DNA of 64,000 nt from Cinnamomum chago (Eukaryota; Streptophyta; Magnoliopsida; Laurales; Lauraceae): the NCBI GenBank assembly GCA_038049695.1, contig CP142460.1, positions 41,462,501-41,526,500 of the forward strand, written 5' to 3'. Of this stretch, positions 3,680 to 58,500 are shown piece by piece; the first letter of the stretch is position 1, and every line of letters begins with the position of its first letter. The translations under genes and the position numbers were made by a program. Below the pieces are notes generated by a model. That model was not told where the DNA came from and did not search any database. It saw nothing but the letters and a program-made list of their open reading frames with translations.

Positions 3680-5552
3680 TGAAAGTCCTGGGATCCTAAC
3701 CCTAGAGGGGGGGTGAATAGGGTGTGCTACAAATATGACCAATTTAGACCAATTTTAATTTCTTAACATAAACTAGTCGCATGTGATGATTAATCAAACA
3801 ATATGCGGAAGCTAATATAAACAATCACCACAAAAGCAAGCACCACAACACAAAGGTTTATAGTGGTTCGGCCTCAATGCCTACGTCCACTACCGGCTTG
3901 TGATCCAATCACCCCACCGGATTTCCACTATTTATGCTTTTCAATAGGCTAAGCAATAACCCTTACAATGTTGTTTTTACAAGACTCAACAACAACCTTT
4001 ACAAGATGCTTTTCAAGGCTAAGCAATAACCTTTACACAATGCTTTTCTTAGGCTAAGCAATAACCTTAACAAATGAAGATTTCTCTAAGAAGGTGTCTT
4101 CACAAAAGATCACTCTAAGAGATACAAATTAAGCTCAAAGAAATTGCCTCTTAAATAGGCTAATATGAAAGTGTAAATCAACTCACACAAACACTAAATG
4201 AATGTAAAGATGTATGCTCATGATGTGTGTGTATGTGATAACTTCAATCAAATTAAAAAAAAAAGCTCAATTAATATATTGCTTAAAGCAATTCAAAGTT
4301 TAAGGCTCATAAAAGATTGATTGAAGTTTAATGCAAATCACATGTATGAGAAACAACTTGTTAATGACATAAAAATCAAAGACTCACAAGTTGTATGAAA
4401 ATGACTAACTTAGACCATGTGATGCATGTGCAATGTTGTTTTCAAAACCAAAAGATTTAACTAAAGTCTAAATGAATGAAAACAACAAATTAGGTTTCAA
4501 CCAAGACAAGGAATCATGCTTTAAAGGAAATCAAAGACTTTGGCTAAGCATGATTAAGAAAGTTTTTACAACAACTTGGATTGAAACCAAGGTGAAGAAT
4601 CCAATCTTAATTAGATCAAAGATTAAGAGAAGAATGGATTCAACACATCATAGTTATCATGCTAAAAATCATTTACCAATAATTTAAACAAAGCACATAA
4701 CTTATGATTAAGAGAGGTAGAGCTTACTTAGAGATTTAACTTCATTAATCCAAGCTTTAGCTCTCCAAAAGACTCTTTGGTCTCTCTTAGTTCATCCCCT
4801 TTGTCTTGTCTCCAAATGCCTCAAAGAAGGCTTAAAAACCTCCAACTTTGACACAGGAAAGAACTACATTTTATAGCCAAAAAATGCCCAACGGCTAGTC
4901 CCAGGTCGACCTGGCAACAGGGGGGGGGGTCGACCTGCCCTACACAACGGCTCAATTTCTTACCATTGGAGCTTCAGGAACCAGTCAACCTGCAGTGGGC
5001 AGGTCGACCCGGGTCCCTGGCCAGGTCGACCTGCCACACAGCAGGTTGACCTCCTGGGACCAAAAATTGCAAAAAAACTCACATTTCAAAGTATTTCTTG
5101 GGGGAACTTTTGGCCACTGAATCAAGCTTGAAAAACATGTTTTAAATCAATCTGAGATGATAAAAAAACATGAAACACAAAAAGCCTTAAAATGATTCGA
5201 AACTTTAAAACCAATGGCTTGCTTGATTTCTAAAAACTCTTTTCACATTTAAATGCATACAAAAATGATCCTGAAAGTGATGAATGTATGCAAGGCACAA
5301 ACCTAAATCCTCAATTTGATTTCTCAAAAGTAATGCACAAAGAATTAGGTTTTCAAAAGAGTTTGGATTCTAAAACAAATGCATCCAAGTTTAGAAACAA
5401 AACATGCATAAATCATTAATTCTACAAGTCTAAAAACCAATGCATGTATAAAACCGGATTTCAAGATTTTCTAAAACAATGCATGTGTGAAAATTCAAAT
5501 GATGCTAAAGTGAAAATGCATCCATCAAATTGCAAATACAAAATCCCTAACA
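3680..5552 (-). repeat. 5' LTR of the gag-only Sirevirus-like element (1873 bp)
   Basis: On the minus strand the repeat starts TGTTAGGGATTTTG and ends GGACTTTCA, giving the canonical TG...CA ends, and the primer site follows two bases later. It carries the block 'gtggttc..cctca...ctacgtccac' near 3861-3890, which recurs in the other Sirevirus LTRs at 42931 and 49333. A cluster of GGTCGACC palindromes lies at 4901-5058. The second LTR is outside the window, so the ends are set from motifs and not from a pairwise match. Confidence 0.75.
4901..5058. repeat. GGTCGACC palindrome cluster in Sirevirus-like LTR
   Basis: About five copies of AGGTCGACC or near variants lie in 158 bp. One is the perfect 14-bp palindrome CCAGGTCGACCTGG at 4901-4914; others are at 4928, 5001 and 5021, plus the variants AGTCAACC and GGTTGACC. 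The surrounding LTR is AT-rich, so the block stands out in base composition. Confidence 0.85.
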
Positions 5553-6976
5553 ATAAGCAGTTAGTGTTGTCTGAGGCATGACCTGGGCTCATGATCTAGT
5601 GATCGGACCCTTTAAGACCATCTAATTGATTGAAGACACATGTTCACCTCTAAAATCAATGTGGATCTGAGATGTATCAGAAGGAAATGTGGATGGGCAA
5701 AGTGTTCCATCTGCTCCTGTTTCTTAGGACTCCCTATTGTACCATTAAATCAGAATGTGGTTTCAGAAGATCCATGCAAAATTTCCTCTAATGATCCTTG
5801 TCTCGTGGTTTTCCCATTTATGTGATTCTAGTATGTTCTTAGTTTGAGTGGGAGAGATTGGAAATGGGTTCTTTTGTCTTGTTTTGATCCCTTTTGGAGG
5901 TAGCATCTATGTTAAGAAGTTGTTTGAGAAAAAGGAATTATAATCAATTACTTTCCTTTTGTTCAGAAGAAAACTTGATTGAGTTTACTGTTGGTGAATT
6001 TCATTTCTGATGGTTTTAATTTGGTTGAGTTTTGTCTTTTAAGTTTCTTACTTCTTGTTAATTACATGATTCTGATGGGACGGTGTTCTAGGAAATGATT
6101 AAAATTATAGACTTAGATTAGATAACAATTTTTTTTTATTGGTTAAAATTATGTTTACTAGTTGGAGAGGCTGGGAGTTTATTGTTGTTCTATGATCTTC
6201 ATATGAGACCTGACTATTTAGTTTGAATGATATACACTTGGAGGTTGGTGCCTGAACTTGTCATGCTTTGTGTTTTTTTCTTTTCTCTATTTTGATTGAG
6301 TGTTTTTTTTTTCTTTGATGTTCCTTCTAATATAGATTTCAATTAGTTACCTACAGAAAACAAGTGGGAATTTCTAATGTTTTTCAATCACTTTGCTGAC
6401 CACCATTTTGTAGAAATATGAAGGTGTGCAGTGTGCGCACATTTGCGTGCGTGTGGTTGTAGGGCCAAAGGGTGGTACAGAGTCCCTATTCTAAATCAAA
6501 TAAGTAAACGCTTAACAAAAAATATATATTCTCATTCACCTCACAATAAAAAGAAGACTACACCAAACACTTGAATCTCTTCAAGACTTCACACTTGTTG
6601 CAGGCAAACATGCGTATTAAAACTGACTGCATCGAAACACATTGGATTGAGTATTCATCTAATGTGGTTTCTAAACAGGGGGTGATGTGTATTAAAATTG
6701 ATTGTCATTAATTTTGTTTATTAGATGAGTATTGCCTGCATTCTTATGTGGTTTGTTATGGATTCTTTTTTATGCTTTGTCTGACGATCATTTTTTTTTT
6801 AAATTGGGTTTTTGTGGTTTGTAGAAACGAAGGTTGGAGACAAGGATATTCAGTTCGTTTGGGTTTTTCTTATATTTGAGTCTTTTTTTCTCTGTTTTTA
6901 TTTCTTTTTTGCATTTATTTTATACCATCTATTGGCTGAATTTGAGTTAACCACCACCTTACATATGTAAATAGAT
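5553..6976. other. No gene seen; 5' flank of the CACTA gene
   Basis: AT-rich DNA with T-runs and no coding signal. It may hold the upstream part of the CACTA element, but I found no CACTA terminal repeat (CACTACAA...) in it. The bases just before 6977 (tacatatgtaaatag) could be a splice acceptor or leader for the transposase gene. Confidence 0.4.
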
Positions 6977-9900
6977 ATGGACAAGAGTTGGATGTTACAA
7001 TATCATAATAGATTCAGTCAGCCGTATATAGAGGGGGTGAATTCTTTTATTGAATTCGCAATGACGAATTCGAGTGGGAGTGGAGTGATTAAATGCCCAT
7101 GTAACTACTGTTGTAATGGTTTTAAGCATGATTATGAGATTGTGAGAGACCATCTGCTCCAGCGTGGGATGATGGTATCCTACGACACTTGGTTACAGCA
7201 TGGGGAACTTGCACAATCCGATGAATCGGATGATGATAGCGAGGATGAATCGGATGAGGACCGGGATGGATATGATGAGTTATTAGAGGACCATGGTAGG
7301 AGGACTTACATGATGGATGATACCCTAGGGATGGATGATGTGCGAAACTTTGAAATTATGCTAGAAGCTTCCCAGCGTGGTTTGTACCCGAGCTGTAAAG
7401 ATTCAGAGACCCTGTTAGCATTTGTCATCAGGATGCTACATGTGAAGGTACAGTATAGGTGGAGCAACAAGTCGTTCGACAAGGTCTTGGAGATATTTAG
7501 GGACACCCTACCAGAAGGTAATGTGGTTCCCGCGTCTGTTTATGAGGCCAAGAAGCTACTACGTGACTTGGGGATGGGGTATGAGCACATTGACTCCTGA
7601 AAGAATGATTGTACACTTTTTTGGAAGGAGAATGCTCACTTGGAGAAGTGTCCGGAATGTGGGGAGCCTAGGTACAAGTTCAATAATGGCAAGGGTAAGC
7701 AGATCGCTCATAAGATACTACGTTACTTCCCATTGATACCTAGGTTGCAGAGATTATACATGTCCAGGATGACAGCCAAAAGATGAGATGGCATCATAAG
7801 AATGGCATATATGGCGATCTGGGTAGGCATCCGGCAGACTATCAGGAATGGAAGAAATTTGATTTGAAATTTCCAGAGTTTGCCCGAGAGATCCGCAATG
7901 TGAGGTTAGGACTGGCCACCGATGGGTTCAACCCCTTCGGCAACATGAGCACTTCTTAAAGCATGTGGCATGTCATACTTATGCCTTAAACCTTCCACCC
8001 TGGATGTGCATGAAGGATCCATTTTTCATGATGTCCTTACTTATTCCTGGGCCGCAGGCACCTAGGAAGGAGATCGATGTGTGCCTGAGGCCCTTCGGTG
8101 ATGAGTTGAAGGAGTTATGGGAGATTGGTGTCATGACTTATGATGCCCATAGTGAACAAACCTATCGAATGCATGCGGCTGTGATGTGGACCATAAATGA
8201 CTTTCTCATGTATGGTAACTTGTCTGGTTGGAGCAAAAAAGGTTATTTGGCTTGTCCCCTTTGCAATGAAGATTCATTATCATGTAAGTTGAGAAGTAAG
8301 ATTGGGTTACTTGCCTAAGAACCACACTTGGAGAAGGAGCAAGAAGTTCAACGGTAAGCCAAAACATAAAATGAAATCCTTGCGTTTACCGGTGCAAAAA
8401 GGTACTTGATCAGTTGGATCAACTACCAGAAGTTAGGTTTGGAAAGGACCCCAACAGCAGGAAAAGACCTCGTGAGCCTACACTGTTGAATTGGGCAAAG
8501 AAAAGCATCTTGTACGAGCTACCATACTGGAAGAACCTAAACCTTAGGCATAACCTTGATGTCATGTTCGTAGAGAAGAACATATGTGAAAATATTGTTG
8601 GGACTATGGTGGGCATAGATAAGAAGAATAAGGACATGGACAAAGCACGTGATGATTTAAAAGATATGAGCATCATGCCACAATTGCATCTGCAAAGGAA
8701 TGAAGAAGGATCCATTATGAAACCCCATGCATCCTACACATTGGAACCGAAATAGAGTGAGGGTTTTTTTGAATTCTTGAAATCAATCAAGTACCCGGAT
8801 GGCTATGCTGCAAACTTGTCAAGGTGTGTGACCTCAAAAAATGGCAAATTATCGGGTATGAAAAGTCACGGCTATCATGTCCTCCTACAACGTCTTTTTC
8901 CGGTTGGCCTACGTGGTTATGTTGATAAGGAGTTAAGTACAACTCTATTTGAGTTGGACAGTTTCTTCTAGGACCTTTGCTCAAAAACATTGAAACAGAG
9001 CGGTTTGATACAATTAGAGGAACGGGGAGTGCTCATACTTTGCAAGCTCGAGAAGATTTTTCCTCCAGCATTCTTTGATGTAATGGTCCATTTGGCTGCT
9101 CACTTGCCACGTGAGGCCATGCTTGCTGGACCGGTGCAATATCGGTGGATGTACCCCATCGAAAGGTAACTGTTACCATCCGATGAAGTGTTATTCATGT
9201 AGTAGTGTGATTGTCTTGCATAAGTAACCTTAATACTAATGTCTCATTGTTTAAAGGTTTCTCGGGACTTTAAAAGGTTATGTTACTAACCGAGCACGAC
9301 CCGAAGGTTCGATCGCCGAGGCTTACATTGTCAAAGAGTGTTTGACTTTCTGCTCGATGTACCTAAAAGGGACTGATCGAGACGAACGAAATGATGATGG
9401 TGGCGTGCGTGGTCCTGAGATGGAGGTTTTCACGCAAAATGTTTGTCCCTTTGAGCCGATCACAAGGGCATCAAATCCTTCTCAGAATGAACGCAACATG
9501 GCTCACTGGTTTGTATTGTATAATAGTCCCGAGTTAATGCCATATCTCGAGTAAGTGCTTTGGCTTAAACACTTGTGTGCATAGATATTTGTTCCCTTGT
9601 TGATTCTTCCTCTACTTTTACTTGCTTATGAATTGCTTTGGCTTAAGTAGGGAACACAGAAATACAATACAAAATCCAGAAGCGCATGACATCAATCAAA
9701 TACAGCGAGACGCATTTCCAAAATGGTTCAAGCAACATATAAGATATATGATGCTCTATTGACATAGTAAACATTATCTAACTGGGCCTCAGTTAACATC
9801 AACTTAATAAACTTACCACATGTTGCTCATGTAGATGAATGATTTGCGAAACCAAGGGTCGCCAGAAGCAACCGATGAAATGTGGTCATTAGCAAATGGT

Positions 9901-10572
9901 CCCAGTTCGATAGTTTATCTATATTCAGGGTGCATATTCAATAGTGTTCAATTCCACACCAGAGATTGCGAGAACAGGCGTAAGTGCCAGAATAGTGGTT
10001 TAGTCGTGCAAGGGGAGCATATTTGGAAGACAATCGACTTCTACGGGTACTTGTGCAAAGTCTGGGAATTGACATACATGCATGGGGGTAGGGTGGTTCT
10101 GTTCCAATGTGAATGGTACAACACCGGTACCAAAAATAAAATACATACCGATCAACACATAACAAGCATTGATGTTACAAGTCGTTGGAATAAAGACGAT
10201 CCATTTGTCCTACCAAGTCAAGCGAAGCAAGTTTTCTATGTTAGTGATACTTGTAAAGGCAACAATTGGAGAATCATAGAAGGAGTCAAGCATCGAGGAG
10301 TGTGGGATGTACCAGAACTGGATGATGTGCCTAACGAGGCCTTCCAGCAGCATGAAACCACTGATGTTGTCCCAATCTATGTCGAAGATAGGGATGTTCA
10401 CTACTGTAGGGATGATATTCCGCCAGAGATAGTTAATGGTGATGTGCCAATGGAGGAGCATAGCGATGACGAGGATGAAACTATGGCAGAATATATAGAT
10501 GATGATGATGAAGACAATCTGTGTAGCCAGTCCGATTCGGATATAGATCCTGATATAAAGTATGATGTGTAG
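6977..10572 (+). pseudogene. CACTA TNPD-type transposase (broken)
   Basis: Domains in order: the transposase-associated N-terminal domain at 6977-7230 (CPCNYCCNGF, then HLLQRGM and YDTWLQHGE); an acidic linker; the Transposase_21 catalytic region from about 7600 to 8310 (HHKNGIYGDLGRHPADYQEW, GLATDGFNPFG, then LIPGPQAPRKEID and GYLACPLCNED); a DUF4218-like part (FPPAFFDVMVHLAAHLPREA at about 9059, continuing after an intron to 9410); and a DUF4216-like part at about 10040-10130 followed by an acidic C terminus ending at 10572. Plausible introns are 9167-9256 and about 9553-9836. It is broken by a TGA at 7598-7600 inside an otherwise continuous homologous frame (KNDCTLFWKE follows), a frame change near 7780, and further stops near 7959, 8316 and 8753. 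Family identity is certain from motif order; exact exon borders are not. Confidence 0.88.
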
Positions 10573-12860: not shown

Positions 12861-12869
12861 ACCTCTGCT

Positions 12870-20915: not shown

Positions 20916-22349
20916 TGTAACATCCCGACCCTTAATCTCCTATTAATTATAATTAATTATGTGATTAGTTAGTAAGTGTGTTTAGAGTCTAAGTAGTCGG
21001 GTTTGACGTCGAATCTCGTGTGCGATGTCTCGCACGATTCGAAGTGCGTTTGGGTAGGATAGAGAGTTGTTTTTCTAATTGGGTAAGTTGTCAGGGAAGT
21101 TATGAGATTATAAGTTTTGTGAGTTTGGGTGCATCGGGTAGGTTTCGTCGTTTCATGCACTTTAGTCTCCTGTCTCATTTCGATTCGAAGCTTCGAAGAG
21201 GCCCGATAGTCATCAATTGTACATATGGACTGACCCAAAACTTGACCCAAACCCAACCCATTTCCAAGGCCCATTTCCAAGGCACAATGCCTTATATTAT
21301 GTCAAAAACCCATCTTCTTTTCTCTCTTTCATTTCATTCAATTACAAGAACAACACAGTAGCAGCCCCTTTTTCCTTTCTCTCTTTCTCTCGTCTTCTTC
21401 CTCACGTCCAACGATCACCAGAACTCGGCAACGACATCCAATCTGCCCATCTTCTTCCTCAAGCTTCCAAGACTCCAACTATACCCTTTTCTAAGCTTTT
21501 CAACCTCAACCCATTCCAAGGTAAGCTCCTAAAGCTTGTATACCATCTCAACTTCTTCCTTCTTAGTTAGAAATGGATTAGGGAGACTCACCTCAACCCT
21601 TGGCATGCATTTGTAGGAGTGATTTGGGTTTTGTCACGCCCCCTTACCGAAACCTCGGGGGCGGGAGATGGGATTAAGCATAAATGTATTTTACTTCTCC
21701 CAAGATCCGCGTGTGTGAAGACAACACATTCTGAATATTTTGCGGAAGCATTTGTGGCGTTGCGACCCGAAGTCCGTGGCCATCGGATTCCGCGTCGCAC
21801 TCAACCTTTAGCGTATAGCTATTATATCAAGAATCATATCAAACTGGAGTAACCATCACAATAAATTACAGAGCTGACGGTAACAGGATATTACATTCCC
21901 AAATATGTTCAAGTTACAATTATCAATGTACATTAATTAAGAATCCCAAGAAAAGGCTAATAAAAGCCATACAACAAAAAGCTATTAACCACTACCCAAA
22001 AAGTGACGTAGCTCCGATGTCAAGCTCAATGTCTACATGACATAGCCGACAAAACAACCTGCAAAATAAGGCTCCACAGCCAACACAAGCACTCAACTCG
22101 GGACGAAGAAATCTGAACCTGAGTACCAAAAGTAGTGGGTCAGACACGACGGTCTGGCAGGTGGATGAAAAGATAATAATATACTCAAGAATAAAACATA
22201 TGATCAATCATGCTATTCAATCAAGTGCTGCATATAATTAAACGGGTGCAAGGTCGGGAATCTCGGGAAAACTCGTATTCATTTCAAGCATGGGTAAAAC
22301 ATGAATATCTAATAAAACAAGTGTTCGTCTAAAACATGTATAAATATAG

Positions 22350-22770
22350 TGGTATGGCAAAACAACGTTCATTTGAAACTTAAGCAAAACATAAGTATAC
22401 AATAAACCAGGTATTCATAGAAGTCTAGCAAAACCAATGTCCATTTGAAACATATTTCAAAGCATGGATATTTAACAATCGGGTAATCATTTAAAACAGG
22501 TATAAACATAGGAATCTGGCAAAACGCGTGTCGTTTAAAATATATTTCAAAGCAGGGGTACTTAACAAATCGTGTATCATTTAAAAACAGTTATAAACAT
22601 AGATATCTGACAAACCAAATGTCCTTTAAAGCAAGTTCGGATATTTAACAATTCGGGTATTCCTTTAAAACATGTGTAATCATATAAATCTAGCAAAATC
22701 ATTGATCGTTTGAAACGTATGTAAAAGCATGGGTATTCACCCAACCGACAATCCTTTAAAACATTTGCGG
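22350..22770. repeat. Degenerate tandem repeat, period about 70-90 bp, inside the solo LTR
   Basis: The anchor word T(A/G)GCAAAAC or a close variant recurs at 22355, 22426, 22517, 22608 and 22691, spaced 71, 91, 91 and 83 bp. Each is followed by 'gt.c.tttgaaa(c/a)' and 'aa(c/t)..(t/c)gg(t/g)at' words. About five decayed units. Confidence 0.7.
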
Positions 22771-23907
22771 GTACAAAGAACAAAAGACAATATAATAATA
22801 ACTGAATTTACATTGGAGAATATTAACACTTGTTGAAATAACAACTTTCATAAAGGAAACGAATCATATATCGGAAGCAAGTAAGCAATATAAAACATGT
22901 CGGGTATCCAAGGAATCGGGAACTGGCAAGATGGCAATCACTAGAAGCTAAGTCCTCTATCACCGAAGTGACAAGAGTATAACGGGACGTTGGTCTCAGT
23001 CACACAAGGTGAGGAGACTCAACGTAAATCATATATACAATATAAATATACGGGAACGGGACCACGGCAATAACCGGGTATCGGGATCCAAACTGCAGCT
23101 GGCGGGACGGGAGAGGGATTTCCAAGTCGATGGATCAAACCGACAAGGTATCCAAGCTTAGTGATGCCGACTCATAGGTCAAAACCAATCGAGACATATG
23201 CAAGTAAATCAAGTACAGTAAATAAACGGGTAAAACGGGGGTGCTCAAGGGCACACTGTCACTTCATATCGGGCAATACATTTCGGGACAAATAACTGTT
23301 ACTAGTGTAACTTCAATGCTTTCGGGGAAACAAGTCATGTAATGCAAATCTCGGGAAAAGAGGTGAAACAATGAACTATAACAATTTCGGGTAAAAATAT
23401 CGGTTTCAAGATCTATTTAAGTGAATAGGGGTCCCGTATGTCGATTATAACAATTACTTGGTACTCCTTGAGTTTAAAGACATTCCGGGCTCCTTATGCA
23501 CTTTTACTATATTAAAATCTTAACTTGAGCTTATGGGTAGTTCTAGATGTTACAATAGCAAAAATCAAGATTATCAACGGTCCATCCTAGGCATGACATT
23601 AATCCGGAAACATCGAGCAACCTATTCAGTCACCGAAAGGAATGGAATTCGCGATAACCAAGGGAAAGACTTGTGTTTAGATATAAAGAAGATATCGCGT
23701 CGTTCCATCCCGTTCAAGATTGAAATGAATTGGACTTCGATGCCACCGAACCAACCGTGAGGCGCGTCGGCTCAAGACATTCTCACACATGGTCCAAACA
23801 GTCCAAAAAGGGTAGCCAGGGTCCCACCTGAAACCAAGAATTAGTGTCTAATCAACACCATTCTTTTCTTTTAGTTCTCTAGTCTTAGAGACCTTAGGAA
23901 ATGTACA

Positions 23908-24001
23908 GGGTCCGATCGATCGGCCGATCGATTGGCCCAAAAAGCCTTACTGTTAAAAGACAGGCCGATCGATCGGCCTGTAGGTCCGATCGATCGGACC
24001 T
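23908..24001. repeat. CGATCGATCG palindrome cluster in solo LTR
   Basis: Three CGATCGATCGG cores lie within 94 bp. A 22-bp perfect palindrome spans 23960-23981 and a 20-bp perfect palindrome spans 23982-24001. A fourth half-copy (CGATCGATTGG) follows the first core. Confidence 0.9.
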
Positions 24002-25766: not shown

Positions 25767-25895
25767 CGGTCGACCGGCTAGGGACCTCGGTCGACCAGCG
25801 ACACAGGATCAGGTTCCCTGGAACCTTACCAAAACATTGTTCTCCATTTCTGCTTACAACTGCGGGTCAACCGACCAAGGGCGGGGTTGACCAAG
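25767..25895. repeat. GGTCGACC palindrome block, middle gypsy LTR
   Basis: CGGTCGACCGG at 25767 and CGGTCGACC at about 25788, then the variants GGGTCAACCGACC and GGGTTGACC near 25865-25895. It is the shorter counterpart of the block at 33470-33690 in the other LTR. Confidence 0.85.
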
Positions 25896-35263: not shown

Positions 35264-35809
35264 CAAACGGTGAATCAAAATATATATATATAGAGTCTAG
35301 CATGCAACAATACTCGCATGTGTGGGAATCAGAATATAAAATGCATAAATGTTGTTTGAATTTCCAACACCTAGGCATTGAGTAGAATGCATAAAAACTC
35401 AATTTGAGGAATATATCCAAACATTAAGTTCAATGAGTGACGATTTCATCACCCAAATAGTGGGTACAATATGTGAAACCCAGCATTTAATAGTGCGTGG
35501 AGTATATGAAAATCAGAATAGTGACCCCACTTAGACAATGAGTAAAGCACGCAGCATTAAGAACATGGGTAAGGAATGAATTGCCCAGAATATCACCATA
35601 CAAATCATATTATAAAAAACTTGTAAATAGATGAATTTTCCTCACCAAATATTGAATGAGACTCATTTGACTCCATCATGTAAATCACGCCCATACGGTG
35701 GATCATTCATGATGATGGCGATGACCATCGCTCTGTTTGACTCTAATTCAACCGAGCTATGTCTTTCAACCTCCTCCCCTCCTTGCAAAAAAAAAAAAAA
35801 ATCCCAACT
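35264..35809. other. No gene seen between the gypsy LTR and the ORF remnant
   Basis: AT-rich flank with a short TA run (about 35280) and an A15 run near 35787. No recognisable coding motif. Confidence 0.45.
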
Positions 35810-38900: not shown

Positions 38901-39212
38901 ATTTGATATATACCTTATATTATACTTTAAGGTTTAGGCTGGACTTCAGCCCTGCTACATTTGTTGTATGGCTGGTGATACCTTTTATCACTCCCACTAT
39001 CATTTAACATATGTTTCTGCTATTATGTGATTTTTCTTCTGTTATTCTATATGCTTCCGTACTTAACCGTTGATTACTATATTGTTTCCAAAGTTTTAAA
39101 TTGAACCTCACTGCAAACTATGATCTTGGAAGTTCTTGGATTTTCTAAGAAGTTGCTCGCTAATTTTGGGTACCATGACGGTAAACTCGACATTCGGAAT
39201 TGGAGCATTACA
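35990..39212 (+). mobile_element. Solo LTR, gypsy-like (3223 bp)
   Basis: Starts TGTGAGGCCCCACCCC and ends GGAGCATTACA, with no primer site, polypurine tract or coding region. The flanks are GTGAG (35985-35989) and ATGAG (39213-39217), a 5-bp duplication with one mismatch. Its terminal words resemble those of Tekay-like LTRs. Its 3' half matches the fragment at 39450-40777 at moderate identity. It carries a promoter-type CT-rich stretch (about 36370-36660) and a palindrome-rich block. Confidence 0.75.
37119..37505. repeat. GGTCGACC palindrome block in solo LTR
   Basis: CGGTCGACCG at 37126-37135 and CGGTCGACC at 37232, with degenerate relatives (GGTCAACCGG, CGGTAGAC, AAGTCAACC, AAGTTGACC) spread to 37505. 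It ends with GACCTGCCACACTGCAG (37489-37505), which matches 16 of 17 bases of the Sirevirus-like LTR at 5028-5044. Confidence 0.8.
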
Positions 39213-40777: not shown

Positions 40778-41059
40778 CATCTGCTATTGGGCCCATACAT
40801 GAACACCAAGAGAATGCTAAGTATTAAAATGATTGTTGCCCATAGTTTTGGGTTCTTAAAGTCTAATGGTTATACACATGGTTTTAAATCTCGCCTGATA
40901 CCGGTTCGTATCGGCCGATACGAACCGATATCGGCCATAACCGGTCTGATATATTGGTGTGATACTGGTCTCGATATCAGTCACCAATATATTGCCAACA
41001 TAGCGGTCGGTCTTGGCCGGTATTTTAAAAATATCGGTTTGGCCGATATTTTGGTTGTT

Positions 41060-42825
41060 AGAAACGATACTTTAAAAAAAAAACATAGAAGGGAAAAGGG
41101 AAAACAAAGCAGATCGGAATCACTTGAAGAGAAAATAAAATAAAGAAAAGAAAATACAGAAGCAAAAAGAGATAGAGAAGGAGGAAGAGAAAGAGGAAGA
41201 GTGGAGGTATCTTGAGCTCTGTCGCCACTACCGACGAGGGCACAATAGTGCAATACCCATCGGTACTTACTGCTACTGCCACCTTGATCTCCTCTCCCTC
41301 TTGTATTTCCTCTCTCCCTTCTCACTTTCCCTCTTTTGCTTTTCATTTTCCTCGTTCTTTTTTCGGTCTTAGCATAATAGTGGGAGTAGTGATAGAAATG
41401 GAAATAAGGAATACCTAATTTCCATTTATTAGGGCTATCAATATTCAATACATTAACCCCTTTCTCGTTTCGGTTAAAGAGAATAATGGAAACCGGGAAT
41501 TGATCGCTTTATTTAGGCTATTAATACATTGATTTATTTCCTTTTATGCCCAGGCTGAGTTGGATTACTAGTGGCAATTGATCTTATGGACTTTATGTGA
41601 GACTTGGACTTAGGGCCATTTTGTGGGCTCCAATCTATATGTTTAGATTATTTAGCTCTTTTGGTTTTAAATATATGGGCCCTAATCATGTTTTCCATCA
41701 AACAGTCTAATCAATGCTGGAGAAGATTCAGATTCGAATAAAATTTTAGCATACCTCATATAATTGGAGGCTAATTTTATTGACACGTTTGGATTTCAAC
41801 TATGCTCAACAATAATATTCAAATTATATCCCCTTATTAAATGGGCCCTGAAGAAATCTTAGTCAAATTAGAGTTGGGCTACTATTTGAAAAATCACTTG
41901 AAAAGATATATGAATAAACTTTTAAGAAAAGCTCAGATTTGCAAAATGGTCAATCAAACAGTGGGCTAGGTCTTATTGGAGTCAATGATCTTGTCAAGTT
42001 GGTATCTATTTTAAGTGATTTGGATATGTTAAATATGAACTACTACATTAATTTACAAACTATATGGATTGGACCAAAGATTGCACACTAAACTTAATAT
42101 AATTAGTTTTTAAAAATTAAGCGGCGATGATGCAAGATGTCATGTCTTAGAGGGACCAATATTTTGATTTATAGTTGTTGATCGTGGCTCCAAGTGCAGA
42201 GCTTCGATTATAGAAATAATTGGTGAGACCAGGTCGATCCACAATGAGCTTTAGAAATAAGGCTTTCCAACTTTGTCACCTGCTCTAAATAAAATCTAAT
42301 TTTAACCTAAAATCTAGAAAAGTACATTCATCATTCCTACTTTAAATTAGAATTAAATACATTTCAAAAAATAAAATTCCTAAATCTAAAAGCCTAATCT
42401 AAAATGAATCACAGGTTGCTACAAAAGAAAACACAAATTAGAACATCAAATTAGAAACAATCCAAAAATAAAACTAAGAAGCTAAATAAAAAATAAAAAT
42501 AAAAATAAAAAAACCTAAGTTAGAAACCAAATCAATCAAAACATGCTCAACAAAGATTAGTAACAAATCAAATCACACAAAAAGAAAACAACTTACTTTC
42601 TAAAATTAGCATGAAAACCTTACTAAATTAGTTTCCTAAATTATAAAGTAGGTGACTCAATTAGGGTTGACATATTTCCTAAGTTAGTGAATTGAGTTAA
42701 TCAACTCCCTAAAGTTAAGAACTTTCCAAATAAATAAAGATTTTCAAATCATAATAAATTTAGAAAACATTAAGTCAATCATACCTTATGTTAGAATTTC
42801 CAAATCTTAAGAAACTTCCTAAGTT
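41060..42825. other. No gene seen; AT-rich DNA left of the Sirevirus
   Basis: Noncoding. A word 'accaggtcgatccacaatgagc' (about 42228) and a right-hand 'aaggacttatca' (ending 52430) look like parts of a further unclassified repeat also split by the Sirevirus, but I could not delimit it. Confidence 0.35.
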
Positions 42826-42830
42826 AAAAT

Positions 42831-43974
42831 TGTTGACCCCACACGGACACTGAGAGGGGGGGGTGAATCAGTGTATCTAAAAATTTAAATGCAACCACAC
42901 AACCACACAACCACAACACAAAAGTTTTTACGTGGTTCACCCTCAGGCTACATCCACGGTGCACAAAGAATGCACTTCCACTATTTTTAGCAACACCAAC
43001 TGCTAGGAGCACCAACCCCTTACAACTTTGCCCGCACCAACGGACAGGAGCACCAACCCCTACACTCAAGCACCCACTTGAGCGATTACAAGGATAAATA
43101 GAATTTATGACACACGCAGGTGCCTTACAATAAAATTCCAGCAACACACACAGGTGTCAAGAAAATATCAATCACGTAGATGATCTCACAGAAATTAGTT
43201 CTCAATTAAATTTGCCCTGCAACTCTTGTAAACCACAAACACTAATTTCTAATCACACCTTTTTGCCCACACAAATATAATCTTAAAAAAACTACAAGTA
43301 TGAGCATAAATCCACATGAAGTAGAGAGCAAGATAACCATACCACAGATGAGGAACGGATCAACATATTCTGAAAATCACCTTTGATTAAATAGGGGGGC
43401 GGGCATATGTTGAAGATGTTGACGTGAAAGAGAGATACAATGGCAGCACGTAGTCCCCTCTGGCTTCTTCTACACAATCAAAGAAATTGCAAAAACAAAG
43501 CCTCTATGCACACCGTTCTGTACTCCTCTCTGTGCTCAATGAAAAACCCATCTTCACCAACGTTTTCTTCCTTCTTTTTTTTTATGTTCTCTGTGTGATG
43601 AATCAAAAAAACTTTTTTTTGCCCTTACACTTTTACTCTTCTCTATAATCAATGAATAACTCCCTTCCCATACGTTTCCTTCTTTTCTAGTCAATGAAGA
43701 TCCCTTCTTTGCACACATGTCATGTCCTTCTTATCTTAGACCTTAGATCCTAAAAAGTTGGATCATAGTATCTATACAAGTGTCCTTTTCCATAAGTGCA
43801 TACCCAATATTTGTGGACCCCACTTATGAGCCTTTATGAAGACTTTTGCATTCCCATTAGATTGGGCCTTTGCACAACTGGGCTGCAAGTGGGTTGTTGG
43901 GCTGACCCACTAAAATTGCCATATTATATTGACAACAATTTCAACTCCAAATCCAAACCCAAGTATGATCAACA
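42831..43974 (-). repeat. 3' LTR of the young Sirevirus (1144 bp)
   Basis: Same length and ends as 49234-50377. Two substitutions were seen: one in the G run near the start and one near 43345. Confidence 0.95.
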
Positions 43975-44164
43975 ATCTCCCCCTTTGGAATTGTTGTCAA
44001 CCAAAGAAAATTTTCTTCTAAACAAGTGAACTCCCCCTGACACCAAACACCTCTCTACTTTAGCTTCAAAGCCTTTAGATACCAACCATTCTCCCCCTTT
44101 GACAACAAGAACAAAGGGCACCCATAGAGAGCAAGATACATAGAAAAAAAATCATGCTCCCCCT
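43975..44164 (-). other. Four polypurine tracts before the 3' LTR
   Basis: AAAGGGGGAGAT abuts the LTR (43975-43986). Further tracts GGGGGAG lie at 44031-44038, 44091-44100 and 44157-44164. Repeated polypurine tracts between pol and the 3' LTR are characteristic of Sireviruses. Confidence 0.9.
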
Positions 44165-44178
44165 ATGAACAAGATCTC

Positions 44179-47100
44179 CTATTTCTTTGGAGCCTCAATA
44201 ACTCCTAATTTCTTCCGAAGATATTCAAAAACTTCTTTTGGTAGAGGCTTTGTAAAGATATCTGCAACTTGTTCTGAGGTAGGGATGTACTCTAGTTTGA
44301 CTTCACCATCTGTCACTTTGTCTTTCAGAAAATGGTATCGAATGGCTATGTGCTTTGTCCTTGCATGTTGCACTGGATTTTTTGAAATGTTGATAGCACT
44401 TGTATTGTCACACATGATAGAAATAGGCTCTATAATCTGGATCCCCAAATCTTTCAACATCTGTCGCAACCATAGCACCTGAGTACAACTAGTAGATGCA
44501 GCAATATATTCTGCTTCTGCTGTAGACAGAGATACTGATTCCTGCTTTTTACTATGCCACGCTACAAGTTTGTCTCCTAAGTAAAATGCTCCTCCACTTG
44601 TGCTTTTCCTGTCATCAATGCAGCCAGCCCAATCAGCATCGGAATACGCAATCAAAGTGAAGTCCTTTCCTTTAGGATACCACAGTCCATATTCCAATGT
44701 GCCTCTAAGATATCGAAAAATTCTCTTCACTGCTGTTACATGTGTTTGTCTGGGATCAGCTTGAAACCTTGCATCCATGCAAACTGCCTGAAGAATGTCT
44801 GGACGAGTAGCTGTCAAGTAAAGTAGACTCCCGATCATTGAGCGATAGAGAGTATGATCAACTGAGTCGGAATTGTCATCTTTGCTAAGTTTACATCCAG
44901 TTGTCATGGGAGTGCTAACAGGCTTACTGTCCTCCATGTTGAATTTTTTCAACATCTCTCTTACATACTTGATCTGAGACATGAAAAGTCCTTCCTTCAT
45001 CTGTTTCACTTGTAGTCCGAGAAAGAATGATAACTCTCCTATCATAGACATCTCAAACTCAGTTCTCATCCTCTCTGCAAAGTCTTTGCACTGTTCATCT
45101 CGGTTGCCAGCAAAGATGATATCATCCACATATACCACTACAACTACTTGATTTCCTTCTGTTGTCTTCACATATAGGTTGCTGTCCACTACCCCTTTCT
45201 TGTATCCAAGCTGCTGTAGGTAAGAGTCCAACCGAGAGTACCATGCCCTAGGTGCCTGTTTTAAGCCATAGAGAGCCTTTTTCAACTTACACACCATGTT
45301 CAAATCAGTACCAATTTGAAATCCATCCGGTTGCTCAATGTACACCTCCTCTTCAAGATTGCCATTCAAAAATGCAGACTTGACATCCATTTGATATATT
45401 TTGAAGTCTTTGTATACTGCCAAAGCAAGTAACATACGGATGGCTTCAAGTCTAGCCACTGGTGCAAAAGTCTCTTCAAAGTCGATCCCTTCAATTTGTG
45501 CATAACCCTTGCAAACCAACCTTGCTTTGTTTCTCACCACCTTTCCTTCTTCATTTAACTTGTTCCGAAAGACCCACTTGGTACCAATTATGTTCTTGTT
45601 TGCAGGTCTTGGTACAAGTTCCCATGTCTGGTTCTTCTCAATTTGATCTAACTCTTCATTCATAGCCTGCACCCAACTTTCATCTTTGCTTGCTTCATTG
45701 ATATTCCTGGGTTCAATGCTGGATAAGAGAGAGTACATACTTGTCGTCATCCTTCTTGTTTGAATTCCTGCCTTTGCATCACCAAGAATGTTGGTTTCCT
45801 TGATTCCATGATATTCATGCCATCTGCTGTTTTCGCTCTTCTTATCTGAATGATCCTCAGATTCTCCTTCCTTTCTATCATCAGACTGTGCTCCAAGTTC
45901 ACTGTCATCATTGTCATCCTCATATACTGGAAGTTCCTGTTTACTGATTTCTGGCTGTTCAACCTGTTCATCAATCTTGACATCAATACTCTCAACTATT
46001 TTGTTTAGTCTTTTGTTATAACATCTGTAGGCCTTGCTTCTAGTTGAGTAACCCAAAAAGATGCCTTCATCTGCCTTTTCATCAAACTTTCCCATGTTCT
46101 GTTCAATTCTCTTGATATAGCATTTACTTCCAAAGACTTTGAAATGTTTGACAGTTGCCTTCCTTCCAAACCATAGTTCATACGGAGTTTTCTCTTCATG
46201 AGGCCTGAGCATGCACCTGTTCTGAATGTATACAGCAGTTTGAACTGCTTCTTTCCAATGCCTATCAGAGAGCTTGCTTTCAACTAACATGGTTCTTCCC
46301 ATCTCCTGAACAGTTCTATTCTTTCTTTCTACCACACCATTTTGCTGAGGTGTTCGAGCTGCTGAGTACTGTCTTCTGATGCCATGCTTCTGGCAATACT
46401 CTTCAAATTCTTCAGAAGTGAATTCACCACCTTTGTCTGATCTTAAACATTTGATCCTTCTTCCAATGTGGTTCTCAACCTGTTTTCTGAAAATTTTGAA
46501 CATGTCAAGAGCTTCATTTTTATGTTTCAGAAACATTATCCATGTCATTCTTGAAAAGTCATCAATGCATAACATGAAGTATTTATGACCATTGATGCTT
46601 TGAGTCCTCATAGGACCACACAGATCAGTATGTATTAACTCCAATGGCTTGCTGGTGTGATGCTCTTTTGACTTGAAAGAAGTTCTAGTAAGTTTCCCTT
46701 TTTGACATGCATCACAAACAACAGTTGAAGACTTTCTTATATGAGGAATATCCCTTACTGCCTTCTTGGAATGGATCTTTGATAGGTTATCAAAGCTTAT
46801 ATGTCCAAGTCTTCTATGCCATAATCTGCTCTCATCTACTTGTCCAATAGCACATGTTTCCTTGACAGTTTCAGATAGTGTGTAGAGATTTCCGGATGTC
46901 CTTGAGCCAACTGCTACAACTTTGCCATTGTTAGACTTCCTTATCTCAAATCCCAGCTTCTTGAACACCACCTCATGTCCTTGATCACATATCTGACTCA
47001 CACTTAGAAGACTGTGCTTCAACCCATTCACAAATAAAACTTCTTTGGAAGTTATCTTCCCATGATTCAGTTGAACTGCTCCTTTTCCAACTATCTTGGC

Positions 47101-49191
47101 ACCATCATTATTTCCAAATTTTACAGAGCCTCCATCATATTGTTCTAGATTCATGAACCTGTCCTTGTCTCCTGACATATGATTTGAGCAGCCACTGTCA
47201 AGAATCCAAGGTGTTGGCCCATTCTGTGCTTTAAGAGCTGTCTGAACAATCAAGGATTCGGCTTTGTTTTTCTGACTCTCCTTCCTTTTCCACACTTTCT
47301 TATACTTTCCCTTTTGTTGTTCTTCTTCACAATGCACCTGTTGCGCCATGTGAATATTTTGCTTTTGTTTCAAAGCATTAGCATGATAATAATAATCCTG
47401 AAAGTTGTTAGTAGGATATTGGTATGCATACATACATTCCCTGGTTGTATGCCCAAAGTTGTGGCAATTGTAGCATTCTAAGGGGTTCATAATCAGGGCT
47501 TCAAATGGGTTTCTACTAACATAATTTCTAGGCCTTCCATTAAATTTACAGGTAGCTATTTTGTGGCCAAAAGTATTACACTTAAAACAATGACCATTAA
47601 AGTAAGGAGTAGACATGTAAAATGATGGTTGCCATTGTAAAGGTGCCATTGACCTTTGCTGAGATTGCTGCGCCATAGATGCTACATGTTTCTTTGGTTG
47701 TTGCACAGGTTTAGATTGAGTAGGCTGAGCAATTACTTTCTGAATCTTCTCAACATGTGACCTATCTTGTTTGGTTGAAGACTCACCCTTGCCAAAACCC
47801 AGACCAAACTTTATATGTGAAGGTCGCTGATTGTTTAGAATTTCATTCAACTTGATTGATCCTTCATATGCTTTTAGTTTCTGATTAATCTTGTCAACTT
47901 GAGCTTTCAAACCTGTAATTTCCTCTTCCATTATGCTGCACTCCTTAGTCTTTATGATAACTTGTGACTCAAGCTTTTCTTTAATTTTCCTCCCTTCTTC
48001 TATTTCAACCTTTAGTGTCTCAACTATTTCTTCAGTTTCTGTCATCTTCTTAGAAATCTTTTTGTTTTTCTTTCTTTCTGTACTCAACTGCTCCAAAGCT
48101 GCTATAAGCTCCTCTTCCAAATTAATCTCAGTCTCAATCTCCTCATTATTAGATTTTTCCTCTTCCTTTTCATCCTCTAGGGCTGCCATAAACAGAACCT
48201 CATTTGATTCTTCAGAATTCTCATTTGAACCATCTTCTGAAGAACTTTCTGTCCTTTTTGAAATATAACTCTTTGACTTTCCTTTCTTGACATATGACTT
48301 GCGAGAATAATCCTTCTTTGATTTGTGAGAGTCACTGTCATCTTCATCTGTGTTAGCAAGAGGGCACTTTGCTGCAAAATGACCAATACCTCCACAATTG
48401 AAGCATTTGAATGGAAGCTTTCCTTTGAACTTTCCATTTCCCTTCCTTAGCTTCCGCACAAAATTAGCTGTCAATTCATCATCTGAGTCCTCTTCATCAG
48501 ACTGTGCTACCTGTTTGTTCTTTTTGTGGGCTTTGAATGCTGCTTCCTTTTCAGTGGGTTTGGTCTTGCCTATTCTCATCTCATATGCTGTAAGAGATCC
48601 ATGCAATTCATCCATATTAAAGACATTTAAGTCTTTGGCCTCCTCAATAGCTGATACTTTTGAGTCAAATCTGGGAGGAAGAGACCTCAAAATTTTCTTC
48701 ACAAGTGTTGGTTCCTTAATCTCCTCACCAAGCCCTCTGATAGCATTAACAACTTCATTAACTCTAAGCATGTAAGCATCAATGTTCTCATCCTCACTCA
48801 TCTTGAGCATTTCAAACTGTGATCGGTGAGTCTGAAGCTTAGCCTCCTTGATCTTCTCATCTCCTTCATGCACACTTTTCAGTTTATCCCATATTTCTTT
48901 CGCAGTTTTACAGTTCATGACTTTGACAAGTTCACTGTTTGACAAGCCACACAACAGAGCATTCCTCGCCTTTGAATCATTCTCAAATAATTTCTTCTCA
49001 GCCACAGCAATAGGATCTTCTTTTCCTTTGTAGCCTTTTCTTACACAGTCCCATATGTCATACCCCAATGCTGAAAGATAAGTCTGCATCCTGAGTTTCC
49101 AAAAAGAATAATTTGTCCCATCAAATAGTGGTGCCTTATTAGAAGAGAACCCTTCTCCTGAAGCCATGTGGGTTGTTGCAAGATCACCCAA
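44179..49191 (-). CDS. Gag-pol polyprotein of the young Sirevirus (1670 residues)
   Basis: A single ORF whose ATG lies about 30 bases after the primer site; a second Met at residue 9 is an alternative. Parts in order: a UBN2-type Gag domain (about residues 20-230; [13 protein letters not shown]), a first zinc knuckle [14 protein letters not shown] (about 262-275), a long acidic coiled coil (about 340-450), two more knuckles [14 protein letters not shown] (about 531) and [14 protein letters not shown] (about 572), protease ([11 protein letters not shown], about 660), integrase (HRRLGH...CDACQKG, then the core with FSRMTW and [12 protein letters not shown], about 790-960), reverse transcriptase ([20 protein letters not shown] at about 1352) and RNase H ([16 protein letters not shown], about 1518 on). 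Length and order are those of a complete copia polyprotein. Confidence 0.96.
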
Positions 49192-49219
49192 AGCAGATTA
49201 TGCTTGTAAATGGAACCTT

Positions 49220-49231
49220 GCTCTGATACCA
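49220..49231 (-). promoter_or_regulatory. Primer binding site of the young Sirevirus
   Basis: Minus-strand TGGTATCAGAGC, two bases inside the 5' LTR, complementary to initiator Met tRNA. Confidence 0.95.
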
Positions 49232-49233
49232 AT

Positions 49234-50377
49234 TGTTGACCCCACACGGACACTGAGAGGGAGGGGTGAATCAGTGTATCTAAAAATTTAAATGCAACCA
49301 CACAACCACACAACCACAACACAAAAGTTTTTACGTGGTTCACCCTCAGGCTACATCCACGGTGCACAAAGAATGCACTTCCACTATTTTTAGCAACACC
49401 AACTGCTAGGAGCACCAACCCCTTACAACTTTGCCCGCACCAACGGACAGGAGCACCAACCCCTACACTCAAGCACCCACTTGAGCGATTACAAGGATAA
49501 ATAGAATTTATGACACACGCAGGTGCCTTACAATAAAATTCCAGCAACACACACAGGTGTCAAGAAAATATCAATCACGTAGATGATCTCACAGAAATTA
49601 GTTCTCAATTAAATTTGCCCTGCAACTCTTGTAAACCACAAACACTAATTTCTAATCACACCTTTTTGCCCACACAAATATAATCTTAAAAAAACTACAA
49701 GTATGAGCATAAATCCACATGAAGTAGAGAGCAAGATAACCATACCATAGATGAGGAACGGATCAACATATTCTGAAAATCACCTTTGATTAAATAGGGG
49801 GGCGGGCATATGTTGAAGATGTTGACGTGAAAGAGAGATACAATGGCAGCACGTAGTCCCCTCTGGCTTCTTCTACACAATCAAAGAAATTGCAAAAACA
49901 AAGCCTCTATGCACACCGTTCTGTACTCCTCTCTGTGCTCAATGAAAAACCCATCTTCACCAACGTTTTCTTCCTTCTTTTTTTTTATGTTCTCTGTGTG
50001 ATGAATCAAAAAAACTTTTTTTTGCCCTTACACTTTTACTCTTCTCTATAATCAATGAATAACTCCCTTCCCATACGTTTCCTTCTTTTCTAGTCAATGA
50101 AGATCCCTTCTTTGCACACATGTCATGTCCTTCTTATCTTAGACCTTAGATCCTAAAAAGTTGGATCATAGTATCTATACAAGTGTCCTTTTCCATAAGT
50201 GCATACCCAATATTTGTGGACCCCACTTATGAGCCTTTATGAAGACTTTTGCATTCCCATTAGATTGGGCCTTTGCACAACTGGGCTGCAAGTGGGTTGT
50301 TGGGCTGACCCACTAAAATTGCCATATTATATTGACAACAATTTCAACTCCAAATCCAAACCCAAGTATGATCAACA
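49234..50377 (-). repeat. 5' LTR of the young Sirevirus (1144 bp)
   Basis: The plus-strand ends are TGTTGACCCC and GATCAACA; the first and last six bases form the inverted repeat TGTTGA/TCAACA. Near its inner edge lies the block 'ttacgtggttcaccctcagg' (49331-49350) followed by 'ctacatccacgg', also present in the gag-only element's LTR. Confidence 0.95.
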
Positions 50378-50382
50378 AAAAT

Positions 50383-55550: not shown

Positions 55551-58500
55551 TGTAAGACCCTGACCCGAATGAACCCGATTAGTATTAATTAAGTCGTGTG
55601 TTAGTCTTAAGCGTGATTAGTAGTCTTTAACTAAGTTGGGTTTGGAATAGCTTTTGATATAGTTTTAGGGAATTTTGATTGCTTAGTAATTAGTGAGGCC
55701 CTTTGGGGGTTCATTTTTATGACTTTGCATGTGCTTGGGGATTTATCGGAGATTCTTGCATTCATTGTTTTAATCCCATTTTATTTGCATTGTTAATCCC
55801 TACAACTTTTATGTTGGTCATGTACCCGTTCGAAATCCCAAAAACCGACTTTCTTAGCATTGAGGGCAAAACAATCTTTTCATACTAAATGTATACCCAA
55901 AACTTGATATCCCCGAAACTAGCGAAACATATACTTTTTGGAAACTAGATATTTCGACGATCACTTTTCTCTTCTTCGTCGAATTCATTAGAAGCCCCGA
56001 AAGCCATAATTTCAACCCAATTAGATTATTAGTAGTGGAGCCCACTCCCCACTTGCTTATAAGAGAACTCTACTTCCTCATTTTCCCTTTTTGTTGGCAA
56101 ACTACAATCTCTCAAACTAGGGTTTCTCCTTTTCTCTCTTTTCTTGCTTTCCATCTCCCAATCCACTACCAAGCCTACAAGTAAGCAACCTTCCCCATCC
56201 ACTACCAAACCTTTGCTTTAGGGTTAATGCTTGTCATCATCTTCTTCCTCATCACCAAATCTCTCCATTGATATCCTTTTTAGAGAAAACTCTTCATTCC
56301 AAGACTCTCTTTGAGCTCACCTTGCCCATTTGGAGAACCTAAAAGTAAGAAACCTTCCCCATCTCTTAGATTTGTGTTTCCTTGATCTTGAAGATGCTCC
56401 ATTCTCATTATTGTAAGGTTTCCCTTTCTATTTCTTGTTTTGACCCATTTTAGGGTTTGTCTTTGGGGATTTTTGCTATAGCTTGGATCTTTGGCTCAGT
56501 AGAGTACAAGAGTTTGATTTCTTGATTTGAAGACCCTAGGCAAGTGGATGATTTGATTTTTATGAGCTTTCAATGGTTTCGGTATTTCCACTCATGCCTA
56601 TTTATTGCATTGATTTGAAATAAATGTTCATGATAGAGCATTGCTAATGCATTTATGGTCATAGAGATGTGTTGATTTATAGCATTTAATTTCCTCTTGT
56701 TTTGTCCCAAAATGCACTCTTATGTGAAATGGTTTCCTTCCTTCTTTCTTTGCATTGGATGTGATGTTGATGGAGGAGAACGGAATGCATATTGTAAGAG
56801 ATTTGATGTTGTTTGAATGAAGTTTTTGGACTCCTTATTGGATGTCTAAAAGAGGCTAGAAAGAGGTTGTAGAAGGAAGAGATAAAGAGGAGTTGAACTG
56901 CCCCGGAATCAGATTCTCGACAGTTCGCTCGAGCAAACATGACACTTCGCTCGAGCGAAGTGTCCAGAAAAGGGTTCGGAGCATTCCAGTAGGCAGTTTG
57001 CTCGAGCGGACCCCTTGGTCGCTCGAGCGAACCTTCCAGAACTCGTTCCGAAGAGTGATTAGTTCGAGTGAACCAATACTTCGCTCGAGCCAACCACCTA
57101 CTGGATGAGTTCGCTCGAGCGACCTCAACTTCGCTCGAGCGAACCCACCTAGACAACCATACCAGAGAGCTCCTCGCTCGAGCGAACCGGAGAGTTCGCT
57201 CGAGCGATGAGTTTTGTCGATCAAAGGCTATGTTTGGGACAGTGATGAGTTATTTAAATGTTTTGGAACTATTCATTGAGAACCCCTTTATGTCAGGGCG
57301 ATTTACTAAGCAATGTATGAGGCCATTTGAAAAAGAAACAACATCACGAAGATTTCATTTGAAATTTTGAAATTTCAAAGTGTATAAGGAGTCCAGAATG
57401 TCCCCAAACTCAAAGAGTACCAAATTGTTATTAGATCGACATACGAGATCCCTATTGACTTCAAATAAATCTTGAACCCGATACTTTACCAGAAATTTCA
57501 ATTGTTTATTGTATTTCACTGTTCTCGAGATTTATACTACATGATTTATTATTCCCGAAAGCATTGAAATTGTACTTGTATTAATTGCTAGCCTCGAAAT
57601 GCATTGCCCGACATGAAGTGACAGTTGTGCCTTTGAGCACTCCCGTCCCGTTTATTTATGTACTTACAATTGATGTATTTCATACATGTTTTAATCTCGT
57701 CATTTGACCTATGAGTCGGCACCACTAAGCTTGGATAACCCTGTTGGTCTGATCCACCGACTTGGAGATCCCCCTCTTGTCCTGCCAGCTGCAGTTTGGA
57801 TCCTACTACCCGGTCATTACTGTGGTCTTGTCCCGTTGCCCGGCTCGCTATCGTGGTCATGTATAGTATATGTATATGTATTTATAAGATCCACTGTTTC
57901 TTCTCACCTCGAGTGATTGAGATCAGTGCCTAGCTATTGCTCTGTCACTTTAGTGACAGAGAACTTAGCTTCGTGTTGTTGTCATCTTGTTTTTTTCCCG
58001 ATTCCTTGGTTACCTTTACATGTTTTACAATGCATACTCGTATTTGAATAAATGTTTTATCTTGTTTATAGAAATTGTTATTTAAACAGGTTTAAATGCT
58101 TTTGAAGGTAAATTCATTTATTATTATATTGTCATTGTATTTTACCCATTTGTCAAACCGTCGTGTTTGACCCACTCTTTGGTACTCAGGTCCGGATATT
58201 GTCTATCCCGAGACGGAGCTTGAGGATGCGGTCGGTGAACCGCAACGCCTAGTCGAGTAGCATGCTGATGATGTCATTTAGACATTGGACTGCTAAAGAG
58301 AGATAACATTTTGGGAAAACTTTTAACCATTTTTTTTTTGGGATTGATATTTGTTTATATTGGCCTTTGTTGGCCTCTATTTTTTGAAAATGTAATTAAA
58401 TGATCTTTGTATAAACTTTAACTTACTTTTAGGTAACATGCTATTGATCATTGCTCATTCTGATACCGTACTATACTTGTGTTGTTATATTTATAACTAG

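Follow-up and report, generated by a model that had tools for sequence, protein, structure and literature searches.

Why do long terminal repeats (LTRs) of different retrotransposon superfamilies carry dense blocks of short CpG palindromes, and what reads these blocks? The question is raised by a 64,000-nucleotide stretch of the Cinnamomum chago genome (assembly GCA_038049695.1, contig CP142460.1, positions 41,462,501 to 41,526,500 of the forward strand), hereafter the window, in which an earlier note had described such blocks in five LTR types. We refer to the copia LTR at 4.9 kb as W, to the LTRs at 23.9 and 56.9 kb as X (X23 and X56), to the element with blocks at 25.8 and 33.5 kb as Y, and to the solo LTR at 37 kb as Z. 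Judging from sequence patterns, we consider it moderately probable that the blocks are cis-regulatory arrays whose sites are bound, as DNA, by a symmetric and probably dimeric protein, the proteins concerned probably being host factors.

Palindromes were found at every block place named in the earlier note. The window contains 50 CpG palindromes of at least 8 bp compared to 25.8 ± 3.8 in 30 dinucleotide shuffles, and four clusters, defined as three CpG palindromes within 200 bp, compared to none in each of the shuffles. A chance-level density elsewhere had been named as a possible refutation, but a random sample of 200 kb, consisting of 20 stretches from parts of 11 of the 14 contigs, contained 238 palindromes versus 146 ± 13, and 13 clusters versus a shuffle mean of 5.5 and maximum of 10. 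Seven of these 13 clusters belong to the types described here, while five lie in one satellite-like region (L020) and one shows another motif (L026). The words GGTCGACC and GCTCGAGC occurred 18 and 10 times in this sample (1.0 and 0.7 expected), each in four of the 20 regions, and CCGGTCGACCGG was counted 11,616 times genome-wide, with 21 occurrences of the reversed word serving as control. The palindrome blocks are real, non-random and a genome-wide feature. While block places and palindrome excess were borne out, other parts of the earlier description required correction: there are five blocks, yet not five unrelated LTR types, as the 23.9- and 56.9-kb LTRs are homologous; the supposed cluster of perfect palindromes in Z does contain palindromes, but only two perfect GC-rich ones and no cluster by the above definition; and the longer shared words fared unevenly, as discussed below. 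The block is not universal either, since the young copia LTRs at 42811–43975 and 49213–50378 contain no palindrome of at least 8 bp with a GC content of at least 50 %.

The palindromes come in pairs, mostly 19–23 bp apart. Their centres are separated by 22, 21, 20 and 22 bp in the X56 block (GCTCGAGC type, 56923–57208, plus strand) and by 21 bp in the X23 block, which has two centres (CCGATCGATCGG type, 23908–24001, minus strand). The distances are 21 bp in the block of the Y 5′ LTR (GGTCGACC type, 25767–25895, plus strand), 20 bp twice, once to a near-palindrome, in the second Y block (GGTCGACC type, 33470–33690, plus strand), and 24 and 22 bp in W; other centre distances are also present in the window blocks. 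Across ten W sequences the core spacing is 20 and 22. Genome-wide, pairs with 2–32 bp between the words number 36,705 for GGTCGACC, 16,231 for GCTCGAGC and 9,407 for CGATCGATCG, compared to 62, 127 and 0 for the reversed controls. Among the first 50 places in contig order, where copies of one family recur, 43, 40 and 32 pairs, respectively, are spaced 19–23 bp start to start, with second classes of nine GCTCGAGC pairs at 29–33 bp and 17 CGATCGATCG pairs at 41–42 bp. Merging similar spacers leaves 24, 26 and 19 distinct cases, of which 19, 20 and 13 retain the 19–23 bp spacing. Direct genome counts of GCTCGAGC pairs gave 72 at 24–28 bp versus 2,938 at 29–33 bp. Spacings of approximately 21, 31 and 42 bp correspond to two, three and four turns of B-DNA.

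The block of W is of an already known kind. The W LTR (3677–5553, minus strand) is assigned to the Sirevirus-type Ty1/copia elements by four junction features: the polypurine tract (PPT) AGGGGGAG followed by AT/TG at the 3′ LTR, found in the sister copy L031 in minus sense; the junction of 5′ LTR and primer binding site (PBS), CA/ATTGG/TATCAGAGC, read in minus sense within 3600–3720 below position 3677; an inverted repeat, CCATCAAATTGCAA and TTGCAATTTGATGG, identified by eye around the PPT; and the C-rich integrase signal CACCCCCCCTCTAGGG close to the 3′ end of the LTR, visually compared with the published text. The window begins shortly after the partner LTR (98 % identity, the query range ending 276 bp before the window starts), and in this partner copy, L030, the PPT reads AAAGGGAG, with two differences from AGGGGGAG. 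The internal region spans about 4 kb and encodes a gag-like open reading frame (ORF) of 397 amino acids (2400–3590, minus strand), whose top Pfam match, the zinc knuckle zf-CCHC, stays below threshold (E 0.0032, 17.9 bits, cut-off 20.8); W is probably non-autonomous. Its palindrome block (GGTCGACC type, 4901–5058, minus strand) ends 25 bp upstream of the TATA box CTATAAAA in element sense. As far as the accessible text of their description goes, Sirevirus RM boxes are palindromic, CpG-rich words at high copy in the LTR, at least eight per element, with a TATA box shortly downstream, at a mean of 37 bp; they were described for Ty1/copia Sireviruses, were Sirevirus-specific among the copia elements compared, and read CGGTCGACCG in Vitis (Bousios et al. 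2010, PMC2829016). The W block resembles them in its distance to the TATA box and in the four junction features of its element. The RM-box core CGG-CCG was found as CGGTCGACCG in Y, in Z, in the X copy L016 and in the W copies L013 and L015, whereas the W block of the window itself has AGG-CCT instead, and no CGG-TCGA-CCG form occurs in blocks of the GCTCGAGC or CCGATCGATCGG type.

The remaining blocks are carried by gypsy-type LTRs rather than by a Sirevirus. Y is classified as Ty3/gypsy by the protein domains RVP_2 (protease), Integrase_H2C2 and SH3_Tf2-1 in its internal pieces (28377–32248, plus strand), which lie between a 5′ LTR, whose part right of a nested X LTR spans 25378–27451 (plus strand) and is followed by a tRNA-Met type PBS, and a 3′ LTR with the ends TGTAACATCCCGACCC...GGGGGCGTGACA (32392–35264, plus strand). 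The nested X23 LTR (TGTGAGAACCC...GGGGGCGTGACA, 21632–25377, minus strand) and the X56 LTR (TGTAAGACCCTGACCC...GGGTCGCGACA, 55551–58712, plus strand) are solo LTRs, and so is Z (TGTGAGGCCCCACCCC...GGAGCATTACA, 35990–39212, plus strand, boundaries set by eye), flanked by the target duplication GTGAG/ATGAG with four of five positions matching. X and Z are gypsy-like by their LTR ends only. The superfamily assignments rest on junction motifs for copia and on protein domains for gypsy. The same words in the same 19–23 bp pairing occur in the Sirevirus-type copia LTR and in the gypsy-type LTRs.

While the pairing persists, the words themselves are replaced. X23 and X56 are homologous, with 68.5 % and 74.3 % identity on either side of the block (BLAST), and at the same variable site the six X sequences compared carry GCTCGAGC (56.9 kb), CCGATCGATCGG (23.9 kb), GGTCGACC (L016 and L005) or, in L015 and L026, GGCTAACC/GGCTAGCC words bordered by GCTCGAGC, either intact or as a mutated remnant. 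X23 furthermore has approximately 300 bp beside its block in common with the 33.5-kb Y LTR (70.7 %, BLAST). Because the GGTCGACC blocks of L016 and L005 align with the Y block together with the stretch that follows it (77 % over 640 columns and 67 % over 591), exchange between LTR families has probably happened. Of 11 pairwise comparisons, 10 show less identity in the block than in its flanks, Y versus L001 being the exception (74.7 versus 70.9 %), and 10 show more gaps in the block, with the remaining one equal.

Such turnover could also arise with no function at all, if slippage, hairpin-mediated recombination and LTR exchange spread palindromes whose spacing was inherited from a few founder units. 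The elevated gap rate of the blocks, the block and flank that X and Y have in common, and the many counted pairs that are copies of one ancestor speak for this explanation. We regard it as very unlikely, as three words with dissimilar spacers prefer the same spacing and as the LTR site persists while its letters turn over.

The sharing between LTRs was further examined at the level of longer words. GTGTACTCGRTCGACCGGC, reported as common to the LTRs at 33651 and 37119, is indeed present at both and at 50 places genome-wide (reversed control 0); eight fetched loci comprise three Y LTRs, one X LTR, two Z LTRs, one Y piece with an X piece next to it on the opposite strand, and one mosaic of W, X and Y. 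With ten block pairs compared, the match between the Y and Z blocks (33.6 and 37.1 kb) was reached by two of 1000 core-preserving 2-mer shuffles. GACCTGCCACAC(A/T)GCAG, which had been proposed to link the copia LTR at 5028 to the gypsy-like one at 37489, is common to both with 25 of 30 bp matching, but since eight of 1000 shuffles reached the match between W and Z (4.9 and 37.4 kb) and ten pairs were compared, we do not retain it as a significant word. The robust sharing between the superfamilies is that of core word plus spacing, not of this longer copia-gypsy word. Ordinary homology of whole LTRs, another refutation considered in advance, accounts for the sharing among X LTRs and between X and Y; neither W nor Z aligned in this way with X or Y in a BLAST self-comparison of the window. 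The proposal of block exchange or a common factor is thus partly supported, by the alignable X and Y blocks and by the words and pairing used in both superfamilies.

The order of the Z block (37119–37505, plus strand) is visible, in Z copies as well, as degenerate dyads of 46–47 bp, AGTGTA..CGGTCGAC-14/15 bp-GTCGACCGG.TACACT. In 16 Z copies both flanks are kept, while the intervening 339–475 bp fail to align to the query.

The position of the blocks relative to TATA boxes differs between the elements. Besides the TATA scored 25 bp from the W block, a scan detected one word in Z, which precedes the block by 766 bp, and one each in X23 and the Y LTR, which follow the block at a distance of about 1 kb or more. 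X56 has no scored word, so that X, Y and Z lack a scored TATA shortly downstream of the block. By eye, TATA-like words followed by a CT-rich leader were recognised in X and Y approximately 700–870 bp upstream. A promoter-proximal place for every block was therefore discarded, as only the W block adjoins a scored TATA. From these positions, the block probably lies outside the transcript in W and may lie inside it in the gypsy-type LTRs; such mixed positions fit an enhancer-like element working from either side.

A block inside the transcript would open the way to action as RNA, in which hairpins of the transcribed block would serve small-RNA silencing, or else promote dimerisation of the RNA and template switching. 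The scored TATA of Z and the TATA-like words of X and Y would place their blocks accordingly, and the folding is stable: against free 2-mer shuffles the z values are −6.1 (W), −6.6 (X23), −12.4 (X56), −3.7 (Y) and −3.5 (Z), while eight flanking stretches range from +0.5 to −3.5. Against core-preserving shuffles, W, X23 and X56 still fold far better (−4.9, −4.3 and −6.8), with a moderate effect for Z (−2.7) and none for Y (−0.6). Palindromes of maize Sireviruses have moreover been reported as small-RNA hot spots in the available text of two studies (PMC10760457, PMC5311732). Selection for a hairpin was nevertheless not supported by the 67 Z dyads, which showed no compensatory change: 745 of 1005 cells were paired versus 744 ± 7 expected, and double changes numbered 23 versus 19.8 (P 0.23). 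Helical phasing is likewise unexpected from a hairpin. The suggested RNA-hairpin role thus has stable folding in three of five blocks on its side, but neither compensation nor spacing, whereas the regulatory role suggested alongside it fits the helical phasing and the W block beside its TATA. In view of the helical spacing we prefer a DNA-bound protein; because of the stable folding we keep the hairpin as a rival, albeit an unlikely one.

Several observations weigh against phased protein sites as the common principle, above all the non-uniform block position, which is the main difficulty for one simple model. In GCTCGAGC pairs, the complementarity of the inner flanks exceeds that of shuffled ones (P 0.001–0.003), as a hairpin would need, while GGTCGACC is borderline (P 0.03–0.16) and CGATCGATCG shows no such effect (n=23, 25 and 19 for GGTCGACC, GCTCGAGC and CGATCGATCG, exact repeats being removed from the GGTCGACC and GCTCGAGC lists). 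Genome counts are inflated by copy number, spacing classes being inherited within families. In the case of GCTCGAGC, 32 of 34 places at 24–28 bp are distinct (34 of the 50 listed were typed, repeats and near-repeats being left out) versus 14 of 50 at 29–33 bp, where all listed places were used; since the former are mostly unique and the latter repetitive, amplification of phased families accounts for part of the 40-fold contrast. GGTCGACC has 2,354 pairs at 24–28 bp; with 45 of the 50 listed standing at 24 or 25 bp, these form a tail to the two-turn peak. Of 31 successive distances in Z, 13 amount to 35–45 bp. Six other Z copies align straight through the block (70–79 %), and of the middles fetched from 17 Z loci, 15 that form one subgroup align with one another, so that variation in the Z block separates subgroups rather than individual copies.

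Under the protein-binding explanation that we favour, each site would consist of a short palindrome, usually centred on TCGA, and two such sites would make up the working unit. Their distance would be about two helical turns, occasionally three or four, so that two dimers would come to lie on the same face of the DNA. The readers would be host factors of one family rather than proteins of one element, because Sirevirus-type copia and gypsy-type LTRs use the same words and because the Vitis Sirevirus word is CGGTCGACCG. Fast evolution of the blocks, through block exchange between LTRs and through unit turnover, would leave pairing and place in the LTR intact, and the outcome would be transcriptional, either as an enhancer or as anti-silencing. 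In a more far-reaching version, which we put forward tentatively and hold to be rather doubtful, both superfamilies share a modular grammar of palindrome pairs phased at two, three or four turns and read by host or element-encoded dimeric factors, in which GGTCGACC, GCTCGAGC, CGATCGATCG and GGCTAACC can replace one another without a change in the geometry, resembling an arms race in which recognition or silencing is at stake.

Alternatively, the elements could themselves encode anti-silencing proteins that recognise these motifs sequence-specifically, in the manner of VANC in VANDAL transposons. According to the text available for these systems, VANC targets are non-palindromic YAGTATTAC motifs of DNA transposons with an element-encoded cognate protein (PMC5735166, PMC10398659); they resemble our blocks as fast-diverging arrays of short motifs in non-coding transposon sequence that differ between related copies (PMC5735166), and differ from the palindromic words in retrotransposon LTRs described here. 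The change of word type between homologous LTRs would agree with such targets, whereas the words common to copia and gypsy elements argue against them. To our knowledge, no accessory protein is common to both. Among the window ORFs searched no such protein was detected, a genome search for one not having been made, and we judge this explanation to be very unlikely.

Repeated boxes upstream of the LTR promoter are also known from Tnt1/Tto1-type enhancers, with few copies and different words, and we know of no sharing of these across superfamilies. Compared to Sirevirus RM boxes, for which the accessible 2010 description could name no common binding factor (PMC2829016), the present arrays also occupy Ty3/gypsy-type LTRs, change their words in homologous LTRs and show paired helical spacing. 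Maize Sirevirus LTR palindromes likewise cluster in a part of the LTR that evolves fast and is predicted to fold strongly, but have the word CACCGGACNNNGTCCGGTG and a reported small-RNA role (Bousios et al. 2016, as cited in PMC10760457 and PMC5311732); gypsy sharing and helical spacing are features of our blocks. As a copia palindrome has been reported as the commonest structured motif of maize Helitrons (PMC10760457), the novelty of sharing across classes is somewhat reduced. What appears to be new here are RM-box arrays in gypsy-type LTRs, the phased-pair geometry and the word turnover. No earlier gypsy-type counterpart or helical spacing was found in the accessible text of the open-licence literature (including PMC2829016, PMC6911290, PMC12016029 and PMC10794571), which is weak evidence, and, among the literature matches listed for the motif words, the titles suggest primers or constructs. 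Phased pairs of known spacing are available by the tens of thousands, covering several word classes as well as both superfamilies, which makes a candidate reader directly testable; if one host factor family does act across superfamilies, it would represent a shared control point for plant retrotransposon activity.

Several copies show complex arrangements. In L016 (5811–10000), an X LTR sits within a W LTR palindrome block, between the window equivalents of 4970 and 5019, while L002 (1380–2050) contains an X/Y-type LTR piece with block between two W LTR stretches, a mosaic without the expected PBS. On C6 (G000, 64288795–64351612), eight matches to the Y block region follow each other at about 7.75 kb, with one gap of double that length, probably representing units of LTR and internal region in tandem, as in the LTR-internal-LTR-internal-LTR run found at 19–35 kb of the window.

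Other palindromes and elements were observed as well. The satellite-like L020 (C10:597509–607508) contains numerous CGACGTCG words, L026 (3663–3813) the further CpG palindromes ATACCGGTAT and TCGGCCGA, and the window, at 40902–40927, the perfect 26-bp palindrome CGGTTCGTATCGGCCGATACGAACCG in a different sequence context. The young copia element at 42811–50378, with terminal repeats of 99.2 % identity and LTRs without a GC-rich palindrome block, encodes a minus-strand ORF of 1672 amino acids with gag, integrase and RVT_2 pieces. Remains of a CACTA-type DNA transposon (Transpos_assoc, Transposase_21, DUF4216) lie at 6971–10569, and the C-terminal dimerisation domain of a hAT transposase at 59672–60112.

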